From Mycobacterium sp. (GTDB taxonomy: Bacteria > Actinomycetota > Actinomycetes > Mycobacteriales > Mycobacteriaceae), in assembly GCA_003987775.1 (NCBI GenBank), contig RXJD01000001.1, positions 1 through 47,137 on the forward strand: a stretch of DNA of 47,137 nt. Reading direction: 5' to 3'. Positions 37,270 to 47,137 of the stretch are shown piece by piece. The notes under the pieces were generated by a model. The model was given only the letters and a program-made list of their open reading frames with translations. It did not search any database and was not told where the DNA came from. Position numbers and translations under genes: made by a program. The stretch's first letter is position 1, and every line of letters starts with the position of its first letter.

Positions 37270-38064
37270 TCAGGCGTCCGCCGGTTCGAAGACGAAGTTG
37301 TTCACGTACACGCCGCGCGGCGCCCAGTCGTCCTCGGCGCCGCCGATGTTGGCCGGATCCTGGTGGGCGGCGGCGTCGAACTCCTCGATGGGCCGGCGCT
37401 GATCGCCCAGCCAGAAATAGCCGCGGAAACCCAGCCCGCGCAGCAGGTCGGTGATGTCGGCGACGGCGTTGGCGTGGTGACGTTCCTCGGCCTCCACGAC
37501 GATTTTCGGGCGGTTGCGGCGCAGCGTGTTGACGGCGCCGCGAAGCACGGCCAGTTCGTGGCCCTCGACGTCGATCTTCACCAGGCCGACGTTGTCCAGC
37601 TTCAGGTCGTCGAGACGTTTGACCGGGACGTCGATGGTCGCGACCGGGCCACCGACCGCGGTGTCCAGCACGTTCTGCTGGTCGATCGTGCTGCGGCCCG
37701 GGTCGGATTCCACCACCCGCATCGCCGTCATGCCGGGCTGGTCGGACAGTGCCACCGCCTCGATGCGCACCGGCGCTCCGACGGCGGTGAACATCAACGC
37801 CAGTTCGCGAGCCTGGGCGGGGCGCGGCTCGAAGGCGATCACCGAGCGCGACGTGGGCAGCATCGCGATCGAAAACTCACCGACGTCGGCGCCGATGTCC
37901 AGCGACACCCGGTCGGGGTCGCAGAGCGAGGCCACCAGCACCACATCCGGACGCGACTCCCCGAGTCGTTGCAGGATCTTGAATTTGCGCTTCCAGAACA
38001 TATGTGGCGCGACGGTCTTCGCCGCGGGCGCGAGCAACCTTTTGGCCGATCGTGCGACAGACAT
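37270..38064 (-). CDS. FkbM-family methyltransferase (copy 1)
   Basis: This 264-residue protein has the FkbM pattern. The SAM motif is LDIGADVGEFSIAMLP, then VIAFEPRPAQARELA and the family signature KIDVEGHELAVLRGA with IVVEAEERHH. Such enzymes O-methylate sugars or polyketides. It lies divergent from the c-di-GMP enzyme gene and near a polysaccharide locus that contains a second FkbM gene (46136), so a glycan substrate is plausible. The start is ATG 38064. Confidence 0.87.
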   Translation of the reverse strand: MSVARSAKRLLAPAAKTVAPHMFWKRKFKILQRLGESRPDVVLVASLCDPDRVSLDIGADVGEFSIAMLPTSRSVIAFEPRPAQARELALMFTAVGAPVRIEAVALSDQPGMTAMRVVESDPGRSTIDQQNVLDTAVGGPVATIDVPVKRLDDLKLDNVGLVKIDVEGHELAVLRGAVNTLRRNRPKIVVEAEERHHANAVADITDLLRGLGFRGYFWLGDQRRPIEEFDAAAHQDPANIGGAEDDWAPRGVYVNNFVFEPADA

Positions 38065-38164: not shown

Positions 38165-38182
38165 TAGTCTCTGGTAACCAGA
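38165..38182 (+). promoter_or_regulatory. Candidate promoter and palindrome ahead of the c-di-GMP gene
   Basis: A TANNNT-type -10 (TAGTCT, 38165-38170) overlaps a 13-bp palindrome, TCTGGT-A-ACCAGA (38170-38182). A regulator bound there would cover the start of transcription. The rest of the 38065-38348 gap shows no gene. Confidence 0.35.
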
Positions 38183-38348
38183 ATTCCATCCGTGACCTGC
38201 GCCGGTCCGGGGTAATCGGCCACTTCGATGCGCATCGGTGGGCATCGGAAGACGGGCAAAACGGCGGCCGCCAATACGGTCCGCCGACCGGGCCGGTCAC
38301 CCATAATTGACGCAGTCGTTGAACACGTGCACAACATCGGAGGTCTCG

Positions 38349-40211
38349 TTGCCGCGCAGCTTGGACCTCGTCGTCACCTCCGTAGCTACTCAGCTCATGG
38401 AAGCGACCGCGTCCACCGCGACGCAGGTGAGTGAACGGGTCCTCGCACAGCTGGTGGAGCAGTTCGACGTGGACGCCAGTTTCCTGCGGCACCACGACCA
38501 CGACATCCGCGCCTCGGTCCTGGTGGCCGAATGGCCCCCGCGCACCAACATCCCGGACCCCGACCCACAGGCTGTCGTGCACTTCACCAGTGCCGACCCG
38601 GTGCTCGCCCAGTGCGAGCACGGCCGCAAGCCGGTGGTGATCCGCCCCGATCAGAACAACCGTTCGCTGCGCTGGGTGGGCGGCGCCAAGCAGACGGCGT
38701 CGCCGTCGGTGGCGGCCGCACCGCTGGTGTCCGGGGAGATGACCACCGGCGTGCTGGGCTTCGTCAAATTCGGCGCGCGTAAGTGGAAACAGGAAGAGAT
38801 CAACACCCTCGAGGCGGTCGCTGCGTTGTTCGCGCAGCTGCAGGCCTGGATCGCCGCCGAGGAGAAGCTGCGGTACCTGGCCGAGCACGATGACCTGACC
38901 GGGTTGTACAACCGCCGGGCCCTGGTTGCGCACCTGTCCGACCGGCTGGCGGCCGGCAACCCCGGCCCCGTCGCGGTGCTCTACATGGACCTCGACCGGC
39001 TCAAATCCATCAACGACTACCTGGGGCACACCGCGGGCGACTGGTTCATCCGCGTCTTCGCCCAGCGGCTGCGGGTGTGTGCCGGCAGCCAGAGCATGAT
39101 CGCCCGGCTGGGCGGCGACGAGTTCGTCGTCATCCCGGACCAGACGATGTCGAGCGCGGCCGCCGAGTCGTTCGCGCGTCGCCTGGGCACGATGCTGCGT
39201 GAGCGACTGGCCATCGGTGGCCACCAGATCACCCGGACGGTGAGCATCGGGCTGGCCGTCGGAATGCCCGGCCGCGACAACAGCACCGACCTGTTGCGCC
39301 GCGCCGACGAAGCGGTGCTGACGGCCAAGCGTGCCGGGGGTAATCAGGTGGCGCTGTCCACCGACGACATGTCCCTGAAGAGCGCGTTCCGCAACGACAT
39401 CGAGTTGCACCTGCAGGGTGACATCGACAGCGAGGCGCTGCTGCTGCACTACCTGCCGGAGGTCGACCTGTGGACCGGCGCCATCGTGGCCGCCGAGGCG
39501 CTGGTGCGGTGGCGGCACCCGATCTGGGGCCTGCTGCTCCCGGATTCGTTCATCGGGGTCGCCGAGTCGACCAACCTCGCCGGCGAGCTCGGGCGCTGGG
39601 TGATGCGCAGTGCCTGCGCCGAGTTCAGTCGGTGGCGGTCCAACGGCGTGGGGCAGAGCGCGGTCCTGCGCATCAACGTCTCGCCCGTGCAACTGATCAC
39701 CCGCGGCTTCGTCCGCAGCGTGGCCGACACGATCGAGGAGTTCGGGATCGACGGCGGCTCGGTCTGCCTGGAGATCACCGAGCGCGCGGTGGTGCACGAC
39801 ATCGAAGCCACCCGCAAGACGCTGTCCGAGCTCAAAGAGGTCGGGGTGCAGATCGCCATCGACGACTTCGGCACCGGTTACGCCGTGTTGTCGCACCTGA
39901 AGTCCCTTCCGGTCGACATGCTCAAAATCGACACCGGGTTCGTTCGCGACCTCGGTACCAACGCCGGTGACCTGGCGATCGTCCGCGCGATCATCGGCCT
40001 GGCCGAGGCGTTCGGCCTGCAATTGGTCGCCGAGGGCGTCGAGACTCCGGCCGCCGCACTGACTTTGATGCAACATGGTTGTCACCGGGCGCAGGGATTT
40101 TTGTTGTCCCGCCCCGTTCCGGGCAACGCCATGGAGGCGTTGCTGGCCGCTCGCTGGATGCCGATGCCGTTCCTCGCCGACCGTGAGGCGCTGACGCTCG
40201 GCGCAATCTAG
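38349..40211 (+). CDS. GAF-GGDEF-EAL cyclic-di-GMP synthase/phosphodiesterase (Rv1354c-like)
   Basis: This 620-residue protein has a GAF-like sensor (about 20-165), a GGDEF cyclase domain (about 175-330; RLGGDEF intact) and an EAL phosphodiesterase domain (about 350-600). The EAL motifs EALVRW, RINVSPVQL, LEITE, DDFGTGY, LKID and AEGVET are all present. The RxxD inhibitory site expected before GGDEF is absent, so product feedback there is unlikely. Both activities are therefore expected, as for the M. smegmatis DcpA/Rv1354c group. The TTG at 38349 has GGAGG five bases upstream; a TTG at 38307 is a longer alternative. The next gene starts 12 bp after its stop. Confidence 0.9.
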   Translation: MPRSLDLVVTSVATQLMEATASTATQVSERVLAQLVEQFDVDASFLRHHDHDIRASVLVAEWPPRTNIPDPDPQAVVHFTSADPVLAQCEHGRKPVVIRPDQNNRSLRWVGGAKQTASPSVAAAPLVSGEMTTGVLGFVKFGARKWKQEEINTLEAVAALFAQLQAWIAAEEKLRYLAEHDDLTGLYNRRALVAHLSDRLAAGNPGPVAVLYMDLDRLKSINDYLGHTAGDWFIRVFAQRLRVCAGSQSMIARLGGDEFVVIPDQTMSSAAAESFARRLGTMLRERLAIGGHQITRTVSIGLAVGMPGRDNSTDLLRRADEAVLTAKRAGGNQVALSTDDMSLKSAFRNDIELHLQGDIDSEALLLHYLPEVDLWTGAIVAAEALVRWRHPIWGLLLPDSFIGVAESTNLAGELGRWVMRSACAEFSRWRSNGVGQSAVLRINVSPVQLITRGFVRSVADTIEEFGIDGGSVCLEITERAVVHDIEATRKTLSELKEVGVQIAIDDFGTGYAVLSHLKSLPVDMLKIDTGFVRDLGTNAGDLAIVRAIIGLAEAFGLQLVAEGVETPAAALTLMQHGCHRAQGFLLSRPVPGNAMEALLAARWMPMPFLADREALTLGAI

Positions 40212-40223
40212 CTCACGCAGAGA

Positions 40224-41918
40224 TTGGTTCGAACCATTAGGAAAATCACACTTGTCGCTGTCGCGTGCGTGACTGTCCTCGTTGCCGGTGCGGCACTGAT
40301 GATCGGCGCCTGCAGCCGCCAGCACACCGACCCGGGCCCGCTGGCGGCGATGGTGAGCCCCGCCATTCCACCTGCTGCCCAGGAGATTTCCAATCCGCTG
40401 CGCGGGCAGTACGAGGATCTGCTGGAGCCGCTCTTTCCGCAGGGCGAACCGGCCCAGCAGCGCTACCCGGCCTGGCCGGCGTCCTACGACGCCAGCCTGC
40501 GGGTCACCTGGCGGCAGTTGCAGCCCACCGACCCGGCCACGCTGCCCCCGGACGCCCCCGATGACCGCAAGTTCGACTTCAGCGTCATCGACGACGCGCT
40601 GAACAAGCTGGCCGAGCGCCGGATGCGGCTGACGCTGCGGGTGCAGTCGTACAACTCGTGCTGCAATGCCAGCTATCCGAACAACACCAACATCGAGATC
40701 CCCGACTGGGAACGCGCCAAGCCCGGCACCAGCACCAGCTATCCCGCCGCCGGAAACGGGCCCGTCCAGGTGGTGCCGAACTTCAACGACCCCACCTATC
40801 TCGGTGACTTCGGGCAGCTGCTGGCGGCGCTGGGGCGCCGCTATGACAACGACGAGCGGCTCAGTGTGTTCGAGTTTTCCGGATACGGCGATTTCAGCGA
40901 GAACCACGTGGCCTATCTGCGTGATTCGCTGAACGCACCCGGTCCGAGTCCCGACCAGAGCGAGGCGGCGCTGGGCTATTACAGCCAGTTCCGCGACCAG
41001 AACATCACCAAGGCGTCCATCCAGCAGTTGGTCACCGCGAACGTCAGCGCCTTTCCGCACACCCAGCTGGTGGCCACTCCCAACAATCCCGAGATCATGC
41101 GCGAACTGCTGGCCGATGACGTCACCAAGAAGCTGGCCGCCCCGGTCGGCATTCGTTCGGACTGTCTGGGCGTCTACGCGCCCCTGCCCGTCTGGGCCGA
41201 GTCCGGACATTACGTCCAGACCTCCGACCCGTTGGTCGGCGCGCTGAAGGATCGCCTCGGCAAGGCGCCCGTGATCACCGAATGGTGCCAGCTGCCCGAC
41301 GGCACCACGCCACAGTCCTATTACGACAAGGGCCTGCACGACGTGATCCGCTACCACGTCTCGATGACGTCGAGCGTCAACTTCCCGGACCAGGATGCGA
41401 CCTCGCCGATGGATCCCAAGCTGTACGTGCTGTGGGCACAGGCCAACGCCGTCGCCGGCTACCGCTACTCGGTGGAAGCCCGGGCCGGATCGCAGTCGCT
41501 GCAGGACCAGGTGGCGTCCATCTCGGTCACTTGGACCAACTACGGCGCCGCGGCGGCCACCGAGAGGTGGGTAGCGGGCTACCGACTGGTCGACTTCGCC
41601 GGGCAGACGGTGCGGACGCTGCCTGCCACCGTCGACCTGAAAGGTCTGGTGCCCGACTCGTCCGGGGACCGCAGCATCGACCAGCCGCCGCCGGCGTCTG
41701 CGACCGAGAGCGTCCACATCGACCTCAAAGGCCTGGCACCCGGGCACTACACGGTGCGCGCCGCGGTCGAGTGGCAGCAGCACAAGCCGAACGGCACACA
41801 CGCGGTGAACTACCCGCCCATGCAACTGGCGCGCGACGGCCGTGATGACTCCGGTTTCTACCCGGTCGCCACGCTCGACGTGCCGCGTGACGTGCTGGCG
41901 GGCTCCCCGAAGACGTGA
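40224..41918 (+). CDS. DUF4832/DUF4874-like lipoprotein (Rv1006-like)
   Basis: This 564-residue protein has an N-terminal membrane/signal segment with a lipobox-like IGAC (about 26-29) and then a large extracytoplasmic domain. NPLRGQYEDL and the Trp/Tyr-rich stretches resemble the DUF4874/DUF4832 pair, which is predicted to form a glycoside-hydrolase-like barrel with a β-sandwich. Sites such as ITEWCQLPDG could hold a catalytic acid, but this is not established. It begins at a TTG 12 bp after the c-di-GMP gene and is likely cotranscribed. It resembles Rv1006. A role in glycan handling is inferred from the neighbours. Confidence 0.72.
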   Translation: MVRTIRKITLVAVACVTVLVAGAALMIGACSRQHTDPGPLAAMVSPAIPPAAQEISNPLRGQYEDLLEPLFPQGEPAQQRYPAWPASYDASLRVTWRQLQPTDPATLPPDAPDDRKFDFSVIDDALNKLAERRMRLTLRVQSYNSCCNASYPNNTNIEIPDWERAKPGTSTSYPAAGNGPVQVVPNFNDPTYLGDFGQLLAALGRRYDNDERLSVFEFSGYGDFSENHVAYLRDSLNAPGPSPDQSEAALGYYSQFRDQNITKASIQQLVTANVSAFPHTQLVATPNNPEIMRELLADDVTKKLAAPVGIRSDCLGVYAPLPVWAESGHYVQTSDPLVGALKDRLGKAPVITEWCQLPDGTTPQSYYDKGLHDVIRYHVSMTSSVNFPDQDATSPMDPKLYVLWAQANAVAGYRYSVEARAGSQSLQDQVASISVTWTNYGAAAATERWVAGYRLVDFAGQTVRTLPATVDLKGLVPDSSGDRSIDQPPPASATESVHIDLKGLAPGHYTVRAAVEWQQHKPNGTHAVNYPPMQLARDGRDDSGFYPVATLDVPRDVLAGSPKT

Positions 41919-41958
41919 GCCCGAGCGCCGCCCATACCGGTAGACTGTTGTCAGTTTG

Positions 41959-41982
41959 TTTACCGTACTAAAAGTAGGTAAA
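41959..41982 (+). promoter_or_regulatory. A/T-rich palindrome upstream of the polysaccharide operon
   Basis: TTTACC-G-TACT (41959-41969) is inverted as AGTA-GGTAAA (41973-41982) around AAA, ten pairs with one bulge. It stands out as A/T-rich in this genome and lies 100 bp upstream of the first coupled gene. It may be an operator. A TANNNT element (TAGACT, 41941-41946) lies just upstream. Confidence 0.45.
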
Positions 41983-42082
41983 TTACTCATGGGGGGACAA
42001 ACGGTGTCCTCTGCACGCTGAGTCGGCCGCACGGTCGAAGGGCGCCCTGGAAGCGCCCAGTGAGGCCCCGGAGAGGCATGAG

Positions 42083-43588
42083 ATGGATTTCCGAACGTTC
42101 GTCCGGACCCTGCTGCTGCACTGGAAGCTCTTTCTGGGCGCCGTACTGGCCTGCCTGGCCGGCGCGGCGGCGATCACGGCGTTTCAGACCAAGAGCTACG
42201 AATCGTCGGCGACGGTGCTGATCTCGTTCTCCGGTGAGACCGACCTCATGCAGGTCTACCAGGGCACTCAGGCCGCCCAGGAGCGGCTGTCGTCGTATGC
42301 GGCGATAGCTGGCGGCCACGCCGTGGCCGAGAAGGCAGTCACCCAGTTCCACCTCCCGGTCAGCGCCGACCAGCTGGCCAACCAGACCAAAGTGGCGTTC
42401 ACTCCCAAGACCACGCTGTTCACCATCACGGTCACCGACACCGACCCGCAGCGCGCGGCAACCCTGGCCAAAGGGGTGGCCGACGAGTTCACGATCATGG
42501 TCGGCTCGCTCGGCGCCACCCCGAAAGCGCCGGCGGCACCCACGACCACACCCACCACCACGCCGTCTGTCGCAGCGGCTCCGGTGTCGGATGGAGAGCA
42601 ACCGACCAGCCAGCCCAGCGAGACGCCGGTGGCGACGTCCACGCCGACCGACCCGGCGGCTCAGGCACCCTCTTCCGGTACCCAGCCGCCGGTCGCCAGG
42701 GCGACGGTCGTCGAGCAACCCGGTGTACCCGACAAGCCCGTCAAGCCGGTCCCGGTGCGCAACATGGCGATGGGCCTGGTGGCGGGGCTGTTGCTGGGCA
42801 CCGGTGTGGCGCTGACGCGTGAGGCCGCCGACCGCACGGTTCGTGACCGCGCCAAACTGGAAACTCTGTCGGGCCTGCCCACCCTGGCCGAGTTGCCCGG
42901 GCACCGGGGCAGTGCTCCGCGATTCGGTACCGACATCTCCTTCGACGACGCGGTGCGCGGTCTGCGCGCCCGGCTGCTGCGGGCCATGGGTCCGGGAGCC
43001 AACCGGGTGTTGTTGACGGCGCCATTCGGCGGCGAGGGCACGACGACGACCGCGATCAACCTGTCCCGGGCCTTCGCCGAATTGGGTGAGGACGTGCTGC
43101 TGATCGAGGGTGACACCCGCCGGCCGGTGATCGCCGGGTTGCTGAAAGTCGAGTCGGGTGAGGGCTTGTCCAATGCCCTGTCCAATCCCGAGATCGCTAC
43201 CGAGGCCACCAAACCGACCTCGATTCCCAAGCTGTTCGTCCTGGCGGCGCGTTCGATCCGCAAGGAGACCCTGCCCACCAGTGCCTACGTGCCGGAGGTG
43301 CTGGACAAGGTGTTGCGGGACGTGGCAAAGACTTTCGAGCGCACCGTCGTCGACGGGCCGCCGGTGCTGGCCAGTGCCGACTCCGGTCTGCTCGGTGGGG
43401 CGGTGGACGCCACGGTGCTGGTGCTGCGGGCCGGGCGGACCACGGAGGACGAACTCGCCGACGCGTTGACCGCGTTGCGTGCCGCCGGTGCCAATGTGGT
43501 GGGCACGGTGCTGACCGATGCCCGGATCGCCCGGCACACCAGGGCGTCGACGAAAACGTACCGCGCCAAGATCAGCGGACCGGCATGA
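42083..43588 (+). CDS. Wzz/BY-kinase-like polysaccharide co-polymerase with degenerate Walker A
   Basis: This 501-residue protein has two membrane segments (about 15-35 and 232-250) around a Wzz-type external domain and a Pro/Thr/Ala-rich linker (about 150-225). The cytoplasmic part resembles CpsD/CapB-type tyrosine kinases. However, the Walker A reads APFGGEGTTTT, with T320 where the essential Lys is expected. Walker A' reads LLIEGDTRRP with E342 for Asp; the Walker B VVDGPP (D424) is kept. A C-terminal Tyr cluster is missing (one Tyr). It is therefore probably a chain-length regulator or scaffold rather than a kinase. GGAGAGG precedes the ATG; it overlaps the next gene by ATGA. Confidence 0.85.
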   Translation: MDFRTFVRTLLLHWKLFLGAVLACLAGAAAITAFQTKSYESSATVLISFSGETDLMQVYQGTQAAQERLSSYAAIAGGHAVAEKAVTQFHLPVSADQLANQTKVAFTPKTTLFTITVTDTDPQRAATLAKGVADEFTIMVGSLGATPKAPAAPTTTPTTTPSVAAAPVSDGEQPTSQPSETPVATSTPTDPAAQAPSSGTQPPVARATVVEQPGVPDKPVKPVPVRNMAMGLVAGLLLGTGVALTREAADRTVRDRAKLETLSGLPTLAELPGHRGSAPRFGTDISFDDAVRGLRARLLRAMGPGANRVLLTAPFGGEGTTTTAINLSRAFAELGEDVLLIEGDTRRPVIAGLLKVESGEGLSNALSNPEIATEATKPTSIPKLFVLAARSIRKETLPTSAYVPEVLDKVLRDVAKTFERTVVDGPPVLASADSGLLGGAVDATVLVLRAGRTTEDELADALTALRAAGANVVGTVLTDARIARHTRASTKTYRAKISGPA

Positions 43589-45066
43589 TCCGCTACCTGC
43601 GGAGTCGCCACCGTCTGGTGATGGCCGCAGTTGTGTTGGCGCTCTTCCTGTTCGGGTGCTTCGTTTACGGTGCGCTGTCGGTTCGTAACACCACCCAGGG
43701 CATCCTGCTGGTCGGCCTGACGTTCTTTCTGATCGTGTACTGGGCCAAACCGGAACTGATGATCGGGCTGGCGCTGTTCCTGGGATGTGCGGCATTGCCG
43801 CAGGGGCTGCATGTGGGCAAAGTGATTGGCCCCGTGTCCATTTACGCGTCACACGTGGTGCTGGTGCTGGCGATCTGTTTCGTGCTGCCCGTGGTGCGGT
43901 TGCGCATGTCCGACTACCTGCTTCCGGGCATGTTCGGGCTCTTCGTCATCTACTCTGCGGCAGTTGGCTTTTCGATGGGCCACAGCACCGCGATCGTGGT
44001 CCGCGAGACGACGTTCCTGCTGGAGATGCTGGCCGGCTTCGTGCTCGCGCTGGTGGTGGTGTACGGCGACTACGTCATGTTGTCGGTGCACGCCATCGCC
44101 TTCACGCTGTGGTTCTCGGCGGGAATGGCCGTCCTGGGTTCTTCCGGTGGCATCCGGCTGGCCGGCCGTACCGAGAGCCTGCAGATGGACACCGGCGACG
44201 ACGCCAACCGGATCATCACCTCCGCGCTGATACCGGCCATCGCCGTGCTGACCGCGTTGGTCGCCGCGCAGATCCTGGGCCGGGTGAAGCCCGCCACCTA
44301 CCTGCTACTGGGTCCGCCCGCGCTGGTGGTTGCGGTGCTGGCATTCACCCGCAACACACTGATCTCCATCGGCGTCGCCGCTGTGGTCGCGTTTTTCGCC
44401 AGCATGGGCTGGTCGGCGGTGCGACGGGCGGCGCGGCTGGCGATCACCGCGGCCGGGATTCTGGCGGTGACCATCCCGCTGGCACTGTTCCTGCTCGGGG
44501 ACTCGTCGGCGGGGGTGTGGCTGGCCAATCAGATCACCGGATTCAGTCACCGCGTGCTCGGCAGATCATCCGGCGCCGCGCTCACCCAGGATCCTTCGAC
44601 GCTGGCGCGATTCGAGGAAGACCGGCATCTCAACGAAGCGATCGCCCAGGCACCGCTGTTCGGGCACGGGCTGGGCTATGCCTACCAATTGCCGTTCGGT
44701 GGTGACGATCCCACCGAATTCACCCAGTCACTCGGCACCACCTACGCGCACAACTTCTACCTCTGGTGGTTGGCCAAAGCCGGCGCGGTCGGGATGGCGG
44801 GTTTCGCGGTCTTCGCGTTGACGCCCCTAGTGCGGGCGCTGCGCAGCGCGTCGGTGCCGGCCAAGATCAGCGCGGCGGTGAGCACCGGTCTGATGGTGAT
44901 GTGCATCATCGACCCGCTGCCGGAGGAACCGACGAACGCGATGACCCTCGGCATCACGCTCGGCGGCGCGCTGGCGTTCGCCATGGCCGGACGCCGCGGC
45001 GACGAGAGTGCAGCTGTGGCAGAGGTTTCGGACGAAGTGCTGACGCCCGCCGGGGCGGTGCGATGA
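43585..45066 (+). CDS. O-antigen polymerase/ligase-like membrane protein (Wzy/WaaL type)
   Basis: This 493-residue protein has about eleven to twelve hydrophobic segments and a larger external loop (about 315-390). It contains the Wzy_C-type sequence TTYAHNFYLWWLAKAGAVGMAG. Wzy and WaaL proteins polymerise or attach lipid-linked oligosaccharides outside the membrane. Mycobacteria are not known for this pathway, so the function here is open. It starts in the stop codon of the co-polymerase gene (ATGA) and its own stop overlaps the GT4 start. Confidence 0.82.
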   Translation: MIRYLRSRHRLVMAAVVLALFLFGCFVYGALSVRNTTQGILLVGLTFFLIVYWAKPELMIGLALFLGCAALPQGLHVGKVIGPVSIYASHVVLVLAICFVLPVVRLRMSDYLLPGMFGLFVIYSAAVGFSMGHSTAIVVRETTFLLEMLAGFVLALVVVYGDYVMLSVHAIAFTLWFSAGMAVLGSSGGIRLAGRTESLQMDTGDDANRIITSALIPAIAVLTALVAAQILGRVKPATYLLLGPPALVVAVLAFTRNTLISIGVAAVVAFFASMGWSAVRRAARLAITAAGILAVTIPLALFLLGDSSAGVWLANQITGFSHRVLGRSSGAALTQDPSTLARFEEDRHLNEAIAQAPLFGHGLGYAYQLPFGGDDPTEFTQSLGTTYAHNFYLWWLAKAGAVGMAGFAVFALTPLVRALRSASVPAKISAAVSTGLMVMCIIDPLPEEPTNAMTLGITLGGALAFAMAGRRGDESAAVAEVSDEVLTPAGAVR

Positions 45067-46139
45067 TGCGGGTTCTGGTGGTGGGCCCGGCGCCCGCGCA
45101 GGCGGCCAGCCGTGGCGGCATGGCGACCGTGATCACGCTGATGGCTGCCCATCCGGCGGCGCGCATCATCACGGTTCCGACGTATATCGAAGGGCCGCTG
45201 TGGTTTCGGCTCTGGATCGGTGGTTCGGGCATGCTGCGGGCCGCCTGGCTGGTCGCGCGCCGGCGGGTCGACGTGTTGCACGTGCACCTGGCGCACGGCG
45301 GCAGCGTGGTGCGCAAGGCACTGCCGCTGGCCGTCGCCCGGTGGACGCGTGTTCCGACCGTTGTGCACGCCCACAGCTATGACTTCGCCGGCTGGTTCGA
45401 CGGATTGCGACCGGCCGTGCAGGGATTGGTCAGGCGCGTGCTGGTCGCCGATCGATGGTTGGTGCTCGGGACGCGTCACGTCGGGGAGTACGCCAGTCGA
45501 CTGCGGCTGCCCGCCGAGCGGATCGCCGTGCTGAACAACGCGGTCGCGATCCCGGAGACGGCGGTCGAACAATCGGATGCGCCGTCGGTGCACGCCGTTT
45601 CGCTGGGCCGGCTCGGAGTGCGCAAGGGCAGCTACGACCTGATCAGCGCCGTCGGGGCGCTGGGCGACGACGCGCGTAGCCGACTGCGGGTGACGTTGGC
45701 CGGTGACGGGGAAGTGGACGAGGTGCGTGCTGCGGTGGCCGCAGCCGGGCTGGGCGACACTATTCATGTTGCGGGCTGGCTGGATCCGGGCGCGCGTGAT
45801 GAATTATTGTGCACCGCACAGATTTTCGTGCTGCCGAGCTATGACGAGGGTCTGCCCATGGCATTGCTGGAAGCGATGGCGTACGGCCTGGCGCCGGTCA
45901 CGACGTTGGTGGGCAGCATCTCCGAGGCGATTACCGACCGGGTGAACGGGCTGGTGGTGGCGCCCGGCCGTCCCGAGCAGATCGCCGACGCGCTGCATGA
46001 ACTACTCAAAGACGCTGATCTGCGGGCAGATCTGGGCACCGCTGCGCGCAGCCGCGCTTGCGACTTCGGCCTGGACCGTTGGTATGAGCAATTGACGCGG
46101 CTGTGGACCGATCTCGACGGAAAGGCGGTTCGACGATGA
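45063..46139 (+). CDS. GT4-family glycosyltransferase
   Basis: This 358-residue enzyme has the GT-B fold of GT4 enzymes. The N-terminal part carries VLVVGPAPAQAASRGGMATV. The C-terminal nucleotide-sugar part has VSLGRLGVRKGSYDLI, LAGDGEVDEV and the E-x7-E motif in PSYDEGLPMALLEAMAYG. It would add a sugar to a lipid-linked acceptor inside the cell. The ATG at 45063 overlaps the stop of the preceding gene; a second ATG follows directly. The donor and acceptor are unknown. Confidence 0.88.
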   Translation: MMRVLVVGPAPAQAASRGGMATVITLMAAHPAARIITVPTYIEGPLWFRLWIGGSGMLRAAWLVARRRVDVLHVHLAHGGSVVRKALPLAVARWTRVPTVVHAHSYDFAGWFDGLRPAVQGLVRRVLVADRWLVLGTRHVGEYASRLRLPAERIAVLNNAVAIPETAVEQSDAPSVHAVSLGRLGVRKGSYDLISAVGALGDDARSRLRVTLAGDGEVDEVRAAVAAAGLGDTIHVAGWLDPGARDELLCTAQIFVLPSYDEGLPMALLEAMAYGLAPVTTLVGSISEAITDRVNGLVVAPGRPEQIADALHELLKDADLRADLGTAARSRACDFGLDRWYEQLTRLWTDLDGKAVRR

Positions 46140-46999
46140 AAGGTGCTCTGCTGCAGAGCGAAGCGGCCAACTGGGCGGCCAGGTATGTGACGGTTCGCAA
46201 CGTAGGACGGCTGCTGGGCCGCAACGCGATGACGGCCGCGACCGAGGCGCTGTGGCGCCGGCGACGCACCCAGGACCTGGCCATGACGGTGGCCGATCAC
46301 TTCGCTCCCAGCGGCGCCACCGTCGTCGACGTCGGCGCCAGCTGGGGCCTGTTCACCTACCACCTGGCCCGCCGCGTCGGAAAATCCGGACAGCTCTACA
46401 GCTTTGAACCGCATCCCGACAATGCTCCGATGCTGCGCAAGCTCGGCCGGGCACGACCCAACGTCCACTTCAGCCAGGCCGCGGTGTCCGATGAGACCGG
46501 CACGGCGCAACTGCTGGTGCCCGAGCACCGCCACCGGCAGGTGACGGCGCAGGGGAGTCTGGCGCACGGGTTCGACGGGCAGGGCGTGGACGTTCGCAAG
46601 ATCGAGGTGCCCCTGGTGCGACTCGACGACGTGCTCGAAGGTGTCGACGTCGATTTCGTGAAGATCGACGTCGAAGGGCACGAGATGTCCGTGCTGCGCG
46701 GCGGTGCCGAGACGTTCCGACGTTGTGGCCCTGCGATTTTGATCGAGATCGAGCAGCGCCATCTTTCGGCGCCGATCGGCGATGTGTTCGGTCAGATCGA
46801 GGGCCTGGGCTATCGACTGTTTTATGTCACCGAGTCGGCGCTGCGCCCTGTCGCTGAGTTCGAGGTGCAGCGCGACCAGATGGACTTCCTGTCGGGCTCG
46901 GGGTCTGGGGAGTTTCATCCCTTTGCGATGCCGCCGGGTTACGTGCACGACTTCGTGGCGGTCCGGTCACCGGAGCTGGTGGCGGGGTTCTGCGGCTGA
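46136..46999 (+). CDS. FkbM-family methyltransferase (copy 2)
   Basis: This 287-residue protein has the SAM motif VVDVGASWGLFTYHLA, then YSFEPHPDNAPML and the FkbM signature KIDVEGHEMSVLRGG with ILIEIEQRH. It starts at an ATG that overlaps the stop of the GT4 gene (ATGA), making it the fourth coupled gene of the operon. It most likely O-methylates a sugar of the polymer made by the neighbouring enzymes; this rests on the context. It resembles the FkbM gene at 37270. Confidence 0.88.
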   Translation: MKGALLQSEAANWAARYVTVRNVGRLLGRNAMTAATEALWRRRRTQDLAMTVADHFAPSGATVVDVGASWGLFTYHLARRVGKSGQLYSFEPHPDNAPMLRKLGRARPNVHFSQAAVSDETGTAQLLVPEHRHRQVTAQGSLAHGFDGQGVDVRKIEVPLVRLDDVLEGVDVDFVKIDVEGHEMSVLRGGAETFRRCGPAILIEIEQRHLSAPIGDVFGQIEGLGYRLFYVTESALRPVAEFEVQRDQMDFLSGSGSGEFHPFAMPPGYVHDFVAVRSPELVAGFCG

Positions 47000-47044: not shown

Positions 47045-47137
47045 ATGGGTTGCAGCACGCGGGACGACTGGGCCGAGGCGCTGGGCGCGCTTGGCGAGTC
47101 GGTGTCGCGGCTGCTGGACCTCACCGCGGATGGGTTG
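47045..47137 (+). CDS. N-terminus of a probable DUF222/13E12-family protein (truncated by window)
   Basis: An ATG at 47045 opens a frame of 31 codons to the window end (MGCSTRDDWAEALGALGESV, then SRLLDLTADGL). The SRLLDLxxDxL stretch resembles the N-terminus of mycobacterial DUF222/HNH (13E12 repeat) proteins. Only the start is visible, so the call is tentative. The preceding gap (47000-47044) is too short for other features. Confidence 0.45.
   Translation, partial: MGCSTRDDWAEALGALGESVSRLLDLTADGL

Follow-up and report, generated by a model that had tools for sequence, protein, structure and literature searches.

A candidate Wzx/Wzy-type surface polysaccharide locus with its own predicted glycoside hydrolase in Mycobacterium

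The stretch of DNA analysed here, which we call the window, is the whole of contig C17 (47,137 nt, with the contig end at 47137) of the 7.29-Mb genome of a Mycobacterium sp., and our subject is a candidate polysaccharide assembly locus that occupies its far end. Six open reading frames (ORFs), all on the plus strand, make up this part of the locus, in agreement with a preliminary description made from the sequence. The first (38307..40211) encodes a GAF-GGDEF-EAL enzyme of cyclic di-GMP (c-di-GMP) turnover (Pfam GAF 34.2, GGDEF 128.2 and EAL 223.4 bits). After a gap of only 12 bp, a TTG start opens the gene for a DUF4832 lipoprotein (40224..41918; lipobox-like Cys30, TIM-barrel model), predicted to be a surface glycoside hydrolase. 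It is followed by a Wzz co-polymerase fused to a BY-kinase-like domain (42083..43588; Wzz 29.3 and AAA_31 33.6 bits), a Wzy-type polymerase of family PF04932 (43585..45066; Wzy_C 48.4 bits), a GT4 glycosyltransferase (45063..46139; Glycos_transf_1 114 bits) and an FkbM-family methyltransferase, FkbM1 (46136..46999; Methyltransf_21 93.9 bits). The 12-bp gap and the three ATGA overlaps, at 43585, 45063 and 46136, can be read literally in the sequence, and every domain just named, DUF4832 apart, scores above its curated Pfam cut-off. All six genes are under purifying selection, with ratios of nonsynonymous to synonymous substitution rates (dN/dS) of 0.01-0.21 over 18 comparisons with three relatives; the GT4 and FkbM1 genes evolve faster (0.14-0.21) than the other four (0.01-0.14). 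The contig ends 138 bp past FkbM1, within the start of another plus-strand reading frame (47046..47137), leaving only half of the locus in the window.

The missing half can be seen in a complete close relative (G006), where the locus lies on one 6.79-Mb contig and the Wzy is 96% identical to that of the window. There the six genes run towards a facing second operon that encodes a cytidylyltransferase-like protein (TIGR02623 189 bits, below the cut-off of 300), a PIG-L protein, a WecG/TagA-type transferase (128.8 bits, cut-off 69), an exopolysaccharide (EPS)-type sugar transferase (TIGR03025 411.7 bits, cut-off 295.6), a Wzx-like flippase (PF01943 68.5 bits, cut-off 28.2; 12 transmembrane (TM) segments by hydropathy), a GT2-GT4 protein, two C-methyltransferases and a further GT4 enzyme. 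Against the NCBIfam equivalog Wzx_EPS the Wzx-like protein reaches only 41.9 bits, with a cut-off of 800. Beyond the second operon come PPE and PE genes, two TetR genes, an unnamed gene and a gene for a PAS protein (PPE, PE, TetR and PAS by Pfam), and then the metS side of the site. From sequence and gene order, we take the flanking genes to be metS, tatD, rpfB, ksgA and ispE on one side and pabB, sigJ and NDH on the other. In the source genome the second operon is on a separate contig, C38, with a sugar transferase 94% identical to that of G006. The C38 end that faces the window contig lies within a multi-copy gene whose end peptide occurs at seven places in the genome, and thus the break between C17 and C38 probably falls in a repeat that separates the two operons; a direct join in the source strain is one that we infer. 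Pfam assigned no family to the window fragment at 47046-47137 or to the fragment at the C38 end (L046:791-958, minus strand). Both contig breaks may fall in one multi-copy gene. In another genome (G107, contig C4), unlike G006, the two operons are ~67 kb apart on one contig. Together, the genes strongly support a single conserved locus with a full Wzx/Wzy set: initiating transferase, flippase, polymerase, co-polymerase and glycosyltransferases. The polysaccharide assembly locus of the preliminary description is therefore borne out and extended by the sugar transferase, Wzx and glycosyltransferases of the second operon, and its overall interpretation is partly supported. We consider it probable that the window carries half of a locus for a Wzx/Wzy-dependent surface heteropolysaccharide, with the polymer being trimmed by its own DUF4832 hydrolase.

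The distribution of the locus was determined in 118 genomes drawn from the genus. This Wzy is present in 33 of the 118, the copy in G088 being a fragment, and is near full length in 32. Exactly these 32 also have a Wzx with 64% identity or more, the next-best Wzx match being one of 54% in a genome outside this group, and 30 of them have the sugar transferase at 71% identity or more. Scanning named genomes with the Wzy alignment (A1) yielded 79 loci, 73 of them mycobacterial and including M. gordonae, M. asiaticum and M. scrofulaceum. In M. gordonae the type strain has the half of the locus that the window shows (L049), and a second strain has the other half (L048). Of the six non-mycobacterial loci, one is from Curtobacterium (31% identity, E 5e-23); the remaining five have E values of 1e-4 or worse. 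Relatives of this Wzy with at least 51% identity were found only in mycobacteria, and the Curtobacterium and Tsukamurella plasmid relatives stand at 31-34%. An origin outside the genus was considered and rejected, the Wzy profile having matched six genus members and given two weak outside hits in 200 genomes of the order; a plasmid origin was likewise rejected, with the Tsukamurella plasmid (34%) as the sole hit in a search that did not extend to phage records.

Since some of the 73 mycobacterial stretches stop at contig ends, the gene counts for them are lower bounds. All 73 contain a wzz match, and in 68 it ends no more than 60 bp from wzy, which argues that the association is not due to chance; in the other five, the match is 66-99 bp away in three, only partial in one, and apart on the opposite strand in the last. 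DUF4832 was found in 67 loci, GGDEF in 59, GT4 in 39, Wzx in 37 and FkbM1 in 9. GGDEF stands directly ahead of DUF4832 in 46, and at least two copies of DUF4832 occur in 35. By these counts, wzz-wzy would be the core of the locus and the window GT4 and FkbM1 genes accessory, as expected of enzymes that shape the repeat unit. The core genes are thus kept together across mycobacteria as first proposed, while the six-gene set itself is variable and FkbM as the last gene of the operon did not hold up beyond nine loci.

The Wzz fusion exceeds the PF02706 cut-off (29.3 versus 25.5 bits), and its matches among solved structures are led by BceF (6z0p) and include CapA1/CapB1 and Wzc. The preliminary description of a Wzz/kinase-like co-polymerase holds for the Wzz domain and the C-terminal ATPase domain and fails for the kinase: the Walker A lysine is absent from all 69 fusions compared, where a GGEGTTTT-type motif has T (62), A (5) or S (2) in its place. 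The last 30 residues contain one tyrosine in 65 of the 69 and two in the other four, with no tyrosine cluster. Because the lysine and the tyrosine tail are both missing, control through an autokinase appears unlikely. The Wzy protein clears its family cut-off (48.4 versus 31.7 bits) and has 12 TM segments predicted by hydropathy, which speaks for the polymerase of the preliminary description rather than an unrelated transporter.

The DUF4832 protein is modelled as a TIM barrel with a strand-rich C-terminal region, and two predicted catalytic carboxylates, Glu217 at strand 4 and Glu353 at strand 7, are placed in the barrel. Glu217 is found in all 98 copies compared and Glu353 in 76. Broken down by type, Glu353 is present in 51/51 copies adjacent to wzz, 12/12 single copies and 13/35 extra copies, and a separate set of orphan copies has it in 6/10; in the 22 extra copies where it is replaced (21 Gln, 1 Asp), Glu217 is retained. 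These extra copies without Glu353 may be binding proteins. Extra copies adjoin NDH, for example at L079:2973-4634 and L085:1825-3570. Sequence searches of solved structures gave no useful relative for DUF4832 or Wzy, and the DUF4874 profile (PF16173) was uninformative, with no match in the source genome or in 14 control genomes.

A scheme for the complete locus can be drawn from these parts. The membrane sugar-1-phosphate transferase would begin each repeat unit on a polyprenyl carrier; enzymes of the WecG, GT2 and GT4 types would lengthen it, and the C-/O-methyltransferases and the PIG-L deacetylase would decorate it. The Wzx-like protein would then flip the unit, to be polymerised outside the plasma membrane by Wzy (43585-45066) with the chain length set by Wzz. 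The DUF4832 lipoprotein, anchored on the outside, is predicted to cut the polymer for trimming, release or remodelling, and the GAF-GGDEF-EAL enzyme may couple production to c-di-GMP. What can be read directly are the genes, their order and their co-inheritance; the hydrolase-like fold is predicted.

Several observations weigh against this scheme. The PF04932 family, named for O-antigen ligase, includes both polymerases and ligases, and membership cannot separate the two. No mycomembrane outlet was found, an OPX/Wza-type protein being unmatched among 16 locus proteins, with the rest of the genome unsearched. GGDEF and DUF4832 genes persist without this wzy in three genomes (G112, G057 and G058), and the polymerase of G073 is ~36 kb from its GGDEF-DUF4832 pair, so the link between the two parts is not obligatory. 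A Wzy_C gene and a sugar transferase gene lie within 30 kb on one contig in at least 22 of the 32 locus genomes among the matches listed; in the other 10 they are, in the same set of matches, further apart or on different contigs. As to the hydrolase, the DUF4832 lipoprotein of the preliminary description retains its ORF and lipobox-like Cys30, whereas the family name is weak by sequence alone because the domain score (24.1 bits) is below the Pfam cut-off of 29.2. The top fold match of the model, found via VIA-align, is 7upv, a non-catalytic beta-amylase relative, and the common TIM fold by itself does not show hydrolytic activity. Nor are the residue counts independent, since most of the Gln copies have a motif in common and appear to go back to a single event.

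The breadth of PF04932 leaves room for a different product. If the window protein were a WaaL-like ligase, as the family name would have it, the locus would make a glycolipid or glycoprotein rather than a polymer, and some mycobacteria do produce lipooligosaccharides. We regard this as quite improbable: the gene is accompanied in every one of the 73 stretches by Wzz, a chain-length protein without a known ligase role, and the flippase matching it is present in the same 32 genomes. A polymer might also be linked to the wall, as a secondary polymer of the teichuronic-acid-like kind, instead of being released or capsular. The WecG/TagA-type transferase, well over its cut-off, would suit such a product; the initiating enzyme, on the other hand, is EPS-type and a hydrolase-like protein is co-encoded, neither of which excludes wall linkage. 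We judge wall linkage somewhat unlikely and prefer the Wzx/Wzy-dependent polymer trimmed at the surface.

A further alternative concerns the c-di-GMP enzyme, which could be a mere neighbour, part of a TetR-TetR-PAS-GGDEF module that landed at the site and regulates other things. The enzyme itself appears intact. The GGDEF motif is present in 41 of 42 sequences and EAL and DDFG in all 42, which we take to be the motifs of both activities, and the RxxD that is presumably the inhibitory site precedes GGDEF directly in none of the 42. The best solved relative is an EAL domain (5yrp, 378 bits). In a 38-row tree, 11 of the 15 locus rows, including that of the window, form a clade of their own (100/99), and a GGDEF match is found in 59 of the 73 locus stretches, with the gene directly before DUF4832 in 46; both points speak against a chance neighbour. 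The idea that all loci share a single GGDEF copy was nevertheless ruled out, as the locus copies are not monophyletic and require four changes on the tree: L067 and L116 pair apart from the main clade, L117 is far away and L092 groups with PAS-linked copies of genomes without the locus. Such PAS-linked GAF-GGDEF-EAL genes are located at other chromosomal sites in 10 of 20 regions and additionally in G016 and G100, most of them adjoining the same TetR genes (PAS and TetR genes are at or near the enzyme in L148, L149, L152-L157, L159, L166, L167 and L171); the same PAS and TetR set adjoins metS in locus genomes. A 22-row group (93/86) unites eight of the 12 PAS-linked copies with 14 locus copies. 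In addition, a divergent FkbM-family methyltransferase gene, FkbM0 (37270..38064 on the minus strand of the window; Methyltransf_21 73.6 bits), which adjoins or sits inside many loci, separates GGDEF and DUF4832 in 12 of the 73. Scanning 16 locus proteins for PilZ gave no match with an E value of 0.001 or less. The neighbour explanation is a serious one, in our estimate falling a little short of probable. Of the c-di-GMP control put forward in the preliminary description, what stands is an intact turnover enzyme in the locus; the control itself is drawn from linkage, and c-di-GMP control of polymer production is plausible from position.

Wzy-type genes are more widespread in the genus than this one locus. 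The preliminary description had held that mycobacterial envelope glycans are not usually assembled in this way; a rarity of Wzy in the genus can be dismissed, as 85 of the 118 genomes have a PF04932 match above the cut-off. The same is true of 9 of the 14 controls, including Corynebacterium glutamicum. Among the matches listed, a Wzy_C gene starts less than 30 kb from a sugar transferase in at least 54 genomes, at least 32 of which are outside the locus genomes. Sibling loci in G013, G021 and G087 combine a Wzx (46-54% identity) with WecG-type and glycosyltransferase genes and a Wzy_C protein. The proximity of Wzy_C genes to sugar transferases or to Wzx/WecG-type genes suggests further polysaccharide loci across the genus.

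A PPE gene is linked to the locus as well. Its product matches PF00823 at 222.8 bits and has a PPE-SVP tail. In all 12 genomes mapped, the gene lies upstream of the sugar transferase gene on the same strand (split into two pieces in G099), with a PE gene adjoining in six. PE and PPE genes also head the second operon of the source genome on C38 (L045:8207-9682). In 29 of the 32 locus genomes, G075 having a partial match, a PPE gene is no more than ~8 kb from the transferase, and it travels with the relocated locus in G073. The top 19 PPE matches among the 118 genomes are all locus-linked, and in a 48-row tree 28 locus PPEs are separated by a 100/100 branch from 20 others, these having been picked by hand from high-scoring rows of the PPE search. 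No PPE was seen near the locus in G030 (where only ~6 kb to the contig end was covered), G078 or G080, which speaks against a PPE as a general requirement. There was also no PPE match in 11 stretches, of which four are from sibling loci, four from G078/G080 and three from GGDEF-DUF4832 sites without wzy. In M. marinum, PPE51 has been linked to nutrient uptake across the mycomembrane, according to the available part of that report (PMC12607722). A dedicated PPE, with or without its PE, might perform the missing outer-membrane step as the outlet or anchor of the polymer, a suggestion that we consider unlikely and offer tentatively. A PPE clade linked to the locus would provide a testable job for a PPE protein.

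The locus also appears in various states of decay. We mapped the surroundings of DUF4832 or Wzx in 18 stretches; the genomes concerned lack this wzy, have a decayed or divergent locus, or have the locus at another position. DUF4832 is the sole locus gene between NDH and metS in seven genomes (G104, G026, G029, G063, G023, G015 and G102), two of which have a GGDEF-like remnant beside it, amounting to ~10% of the gene in G063 and <5% in G015. These seven resemble the arrangement that the preliminary description gives for M. tuberculosis. G016 is left out of this comparison; a stretch of it at coordinates guessed to match the pabB-metS site of H37Rv had none of the locus genes. The GGDEF-DUF4832 site of G057 also has a C-methyltransferase of 75% identity, and the G073 site retains GGDEF and DUF4832 with its Wzy ~36 kb off. 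Further along, only DUF4832 fragments remain between pabB and metS in G074 (L137) and G114 (L138), both 3.27 Mb, and G088 (L141; 3.2 Mb) has pieces of GGDEF, DUF4832, wzz, wzy and the sugar transferase in a row. This series reads as repeated loss of the locus. Reduction of the locus to fragments or to a single hydrolase-like gene would account for a conserved gene being left as an orphan; Rv1006, which the preliminary description named as the DUF4832 gene kept by M. tuberculosis, is listed as a horizontally transferred 'Glycosyl transferase' in the accessible portion of one survey (PMC3087520).

Within the window, the 164-bp gap before wzz contains an AT-rich inverted repeat, TTTACCGTACTAAAAGTAGGTAAA (41959..41982), that is a candidate operator. 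Both M. gordonae loci contain the repeat, one M. asiaticum locus has an altered version of it, and the search pattern had no match in the remaining loci scanned. An operator before wzz common to all loci is thus ruled out. In several other loci the gap before wzz has a GATGCTGCATAATG-like stretch in place of the inverted repeat.

Among the papers listed in literature searches that excluded most subscription journals, titles and abstract openings credit no mycobacterial glycan to Wzx/Wzy assembly, and a mycobacterial locus of this type is apparently undescribed in print. A review, in the part available, counts the genetic pathways behind the polysaccharides of mycobacterial biofilms among the opportunities for research (PMC6364259). 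A conserved and deletable locus in M. gordonae, M. asiaticum and M. scrofulaceum would be a direct genetic handle on an extracellular polysaccharide.

The closest parallels for the gene set are the imp and wps-1 to wps-3 EPS clusters of Actinoplanes missouriensis, which also comprise a sugar transferase, Wzx, Wzy, Wzz and glycosyltransferases. These were assigned in silico; some of the mutants affect the sporangium, and hydrolases act on its matrix. The available text of that report makes no mention of a GGDEF-EAL/DUF4832 pair, PE/PPE genes or the pabB-metS site (PMC13390465). A second parallel is found in Gram-positive Pel clusters, where, as here, a DUF4832 gene is contiguous with polysaccharide genes. 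As far as the excerpts at hand go, a gene for a dual cyclase/phosphodiesterase takes the place of DUF4832 in the bifidobacterial clusters, and Pel of B. cereus is under c-di-GMP control (PMC7112168, PMC12345266). The streptococcal glycoside hydrolase SIR_1591, a DUF4832 protein of a Pel cluster, has a TIM-barrel model, and its purified form disperses aggregates (PMC12345266, as excerpted). Pel, as these excerpts describe it, is synthase-dependent with a PelD receptor, whereas the mycobacterial locus is of the Wzx/Wzy type with no PelD-like receptor among the locus proteins scanned. The window Wzz joins a Wzz domain to a C-terminal ATPase domain in the manner of the Wzc/CapAB/BceF autokinases, and differs from them in lacking the Walker A lysine (69/69) and a tyrosine cluster. 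Finally, the locus c-di-GMP enzyme has a domain order identical to that of DcpA/Rv1354c, which both synthesises and degrades c-di-GMP according to the available part of the review (PMC6364259). Unlike DcpA/Rv1354c, which has no named row in our tree, 11 of the 15 locus copies form their own clade beside hydrolase-like and polymer genes.

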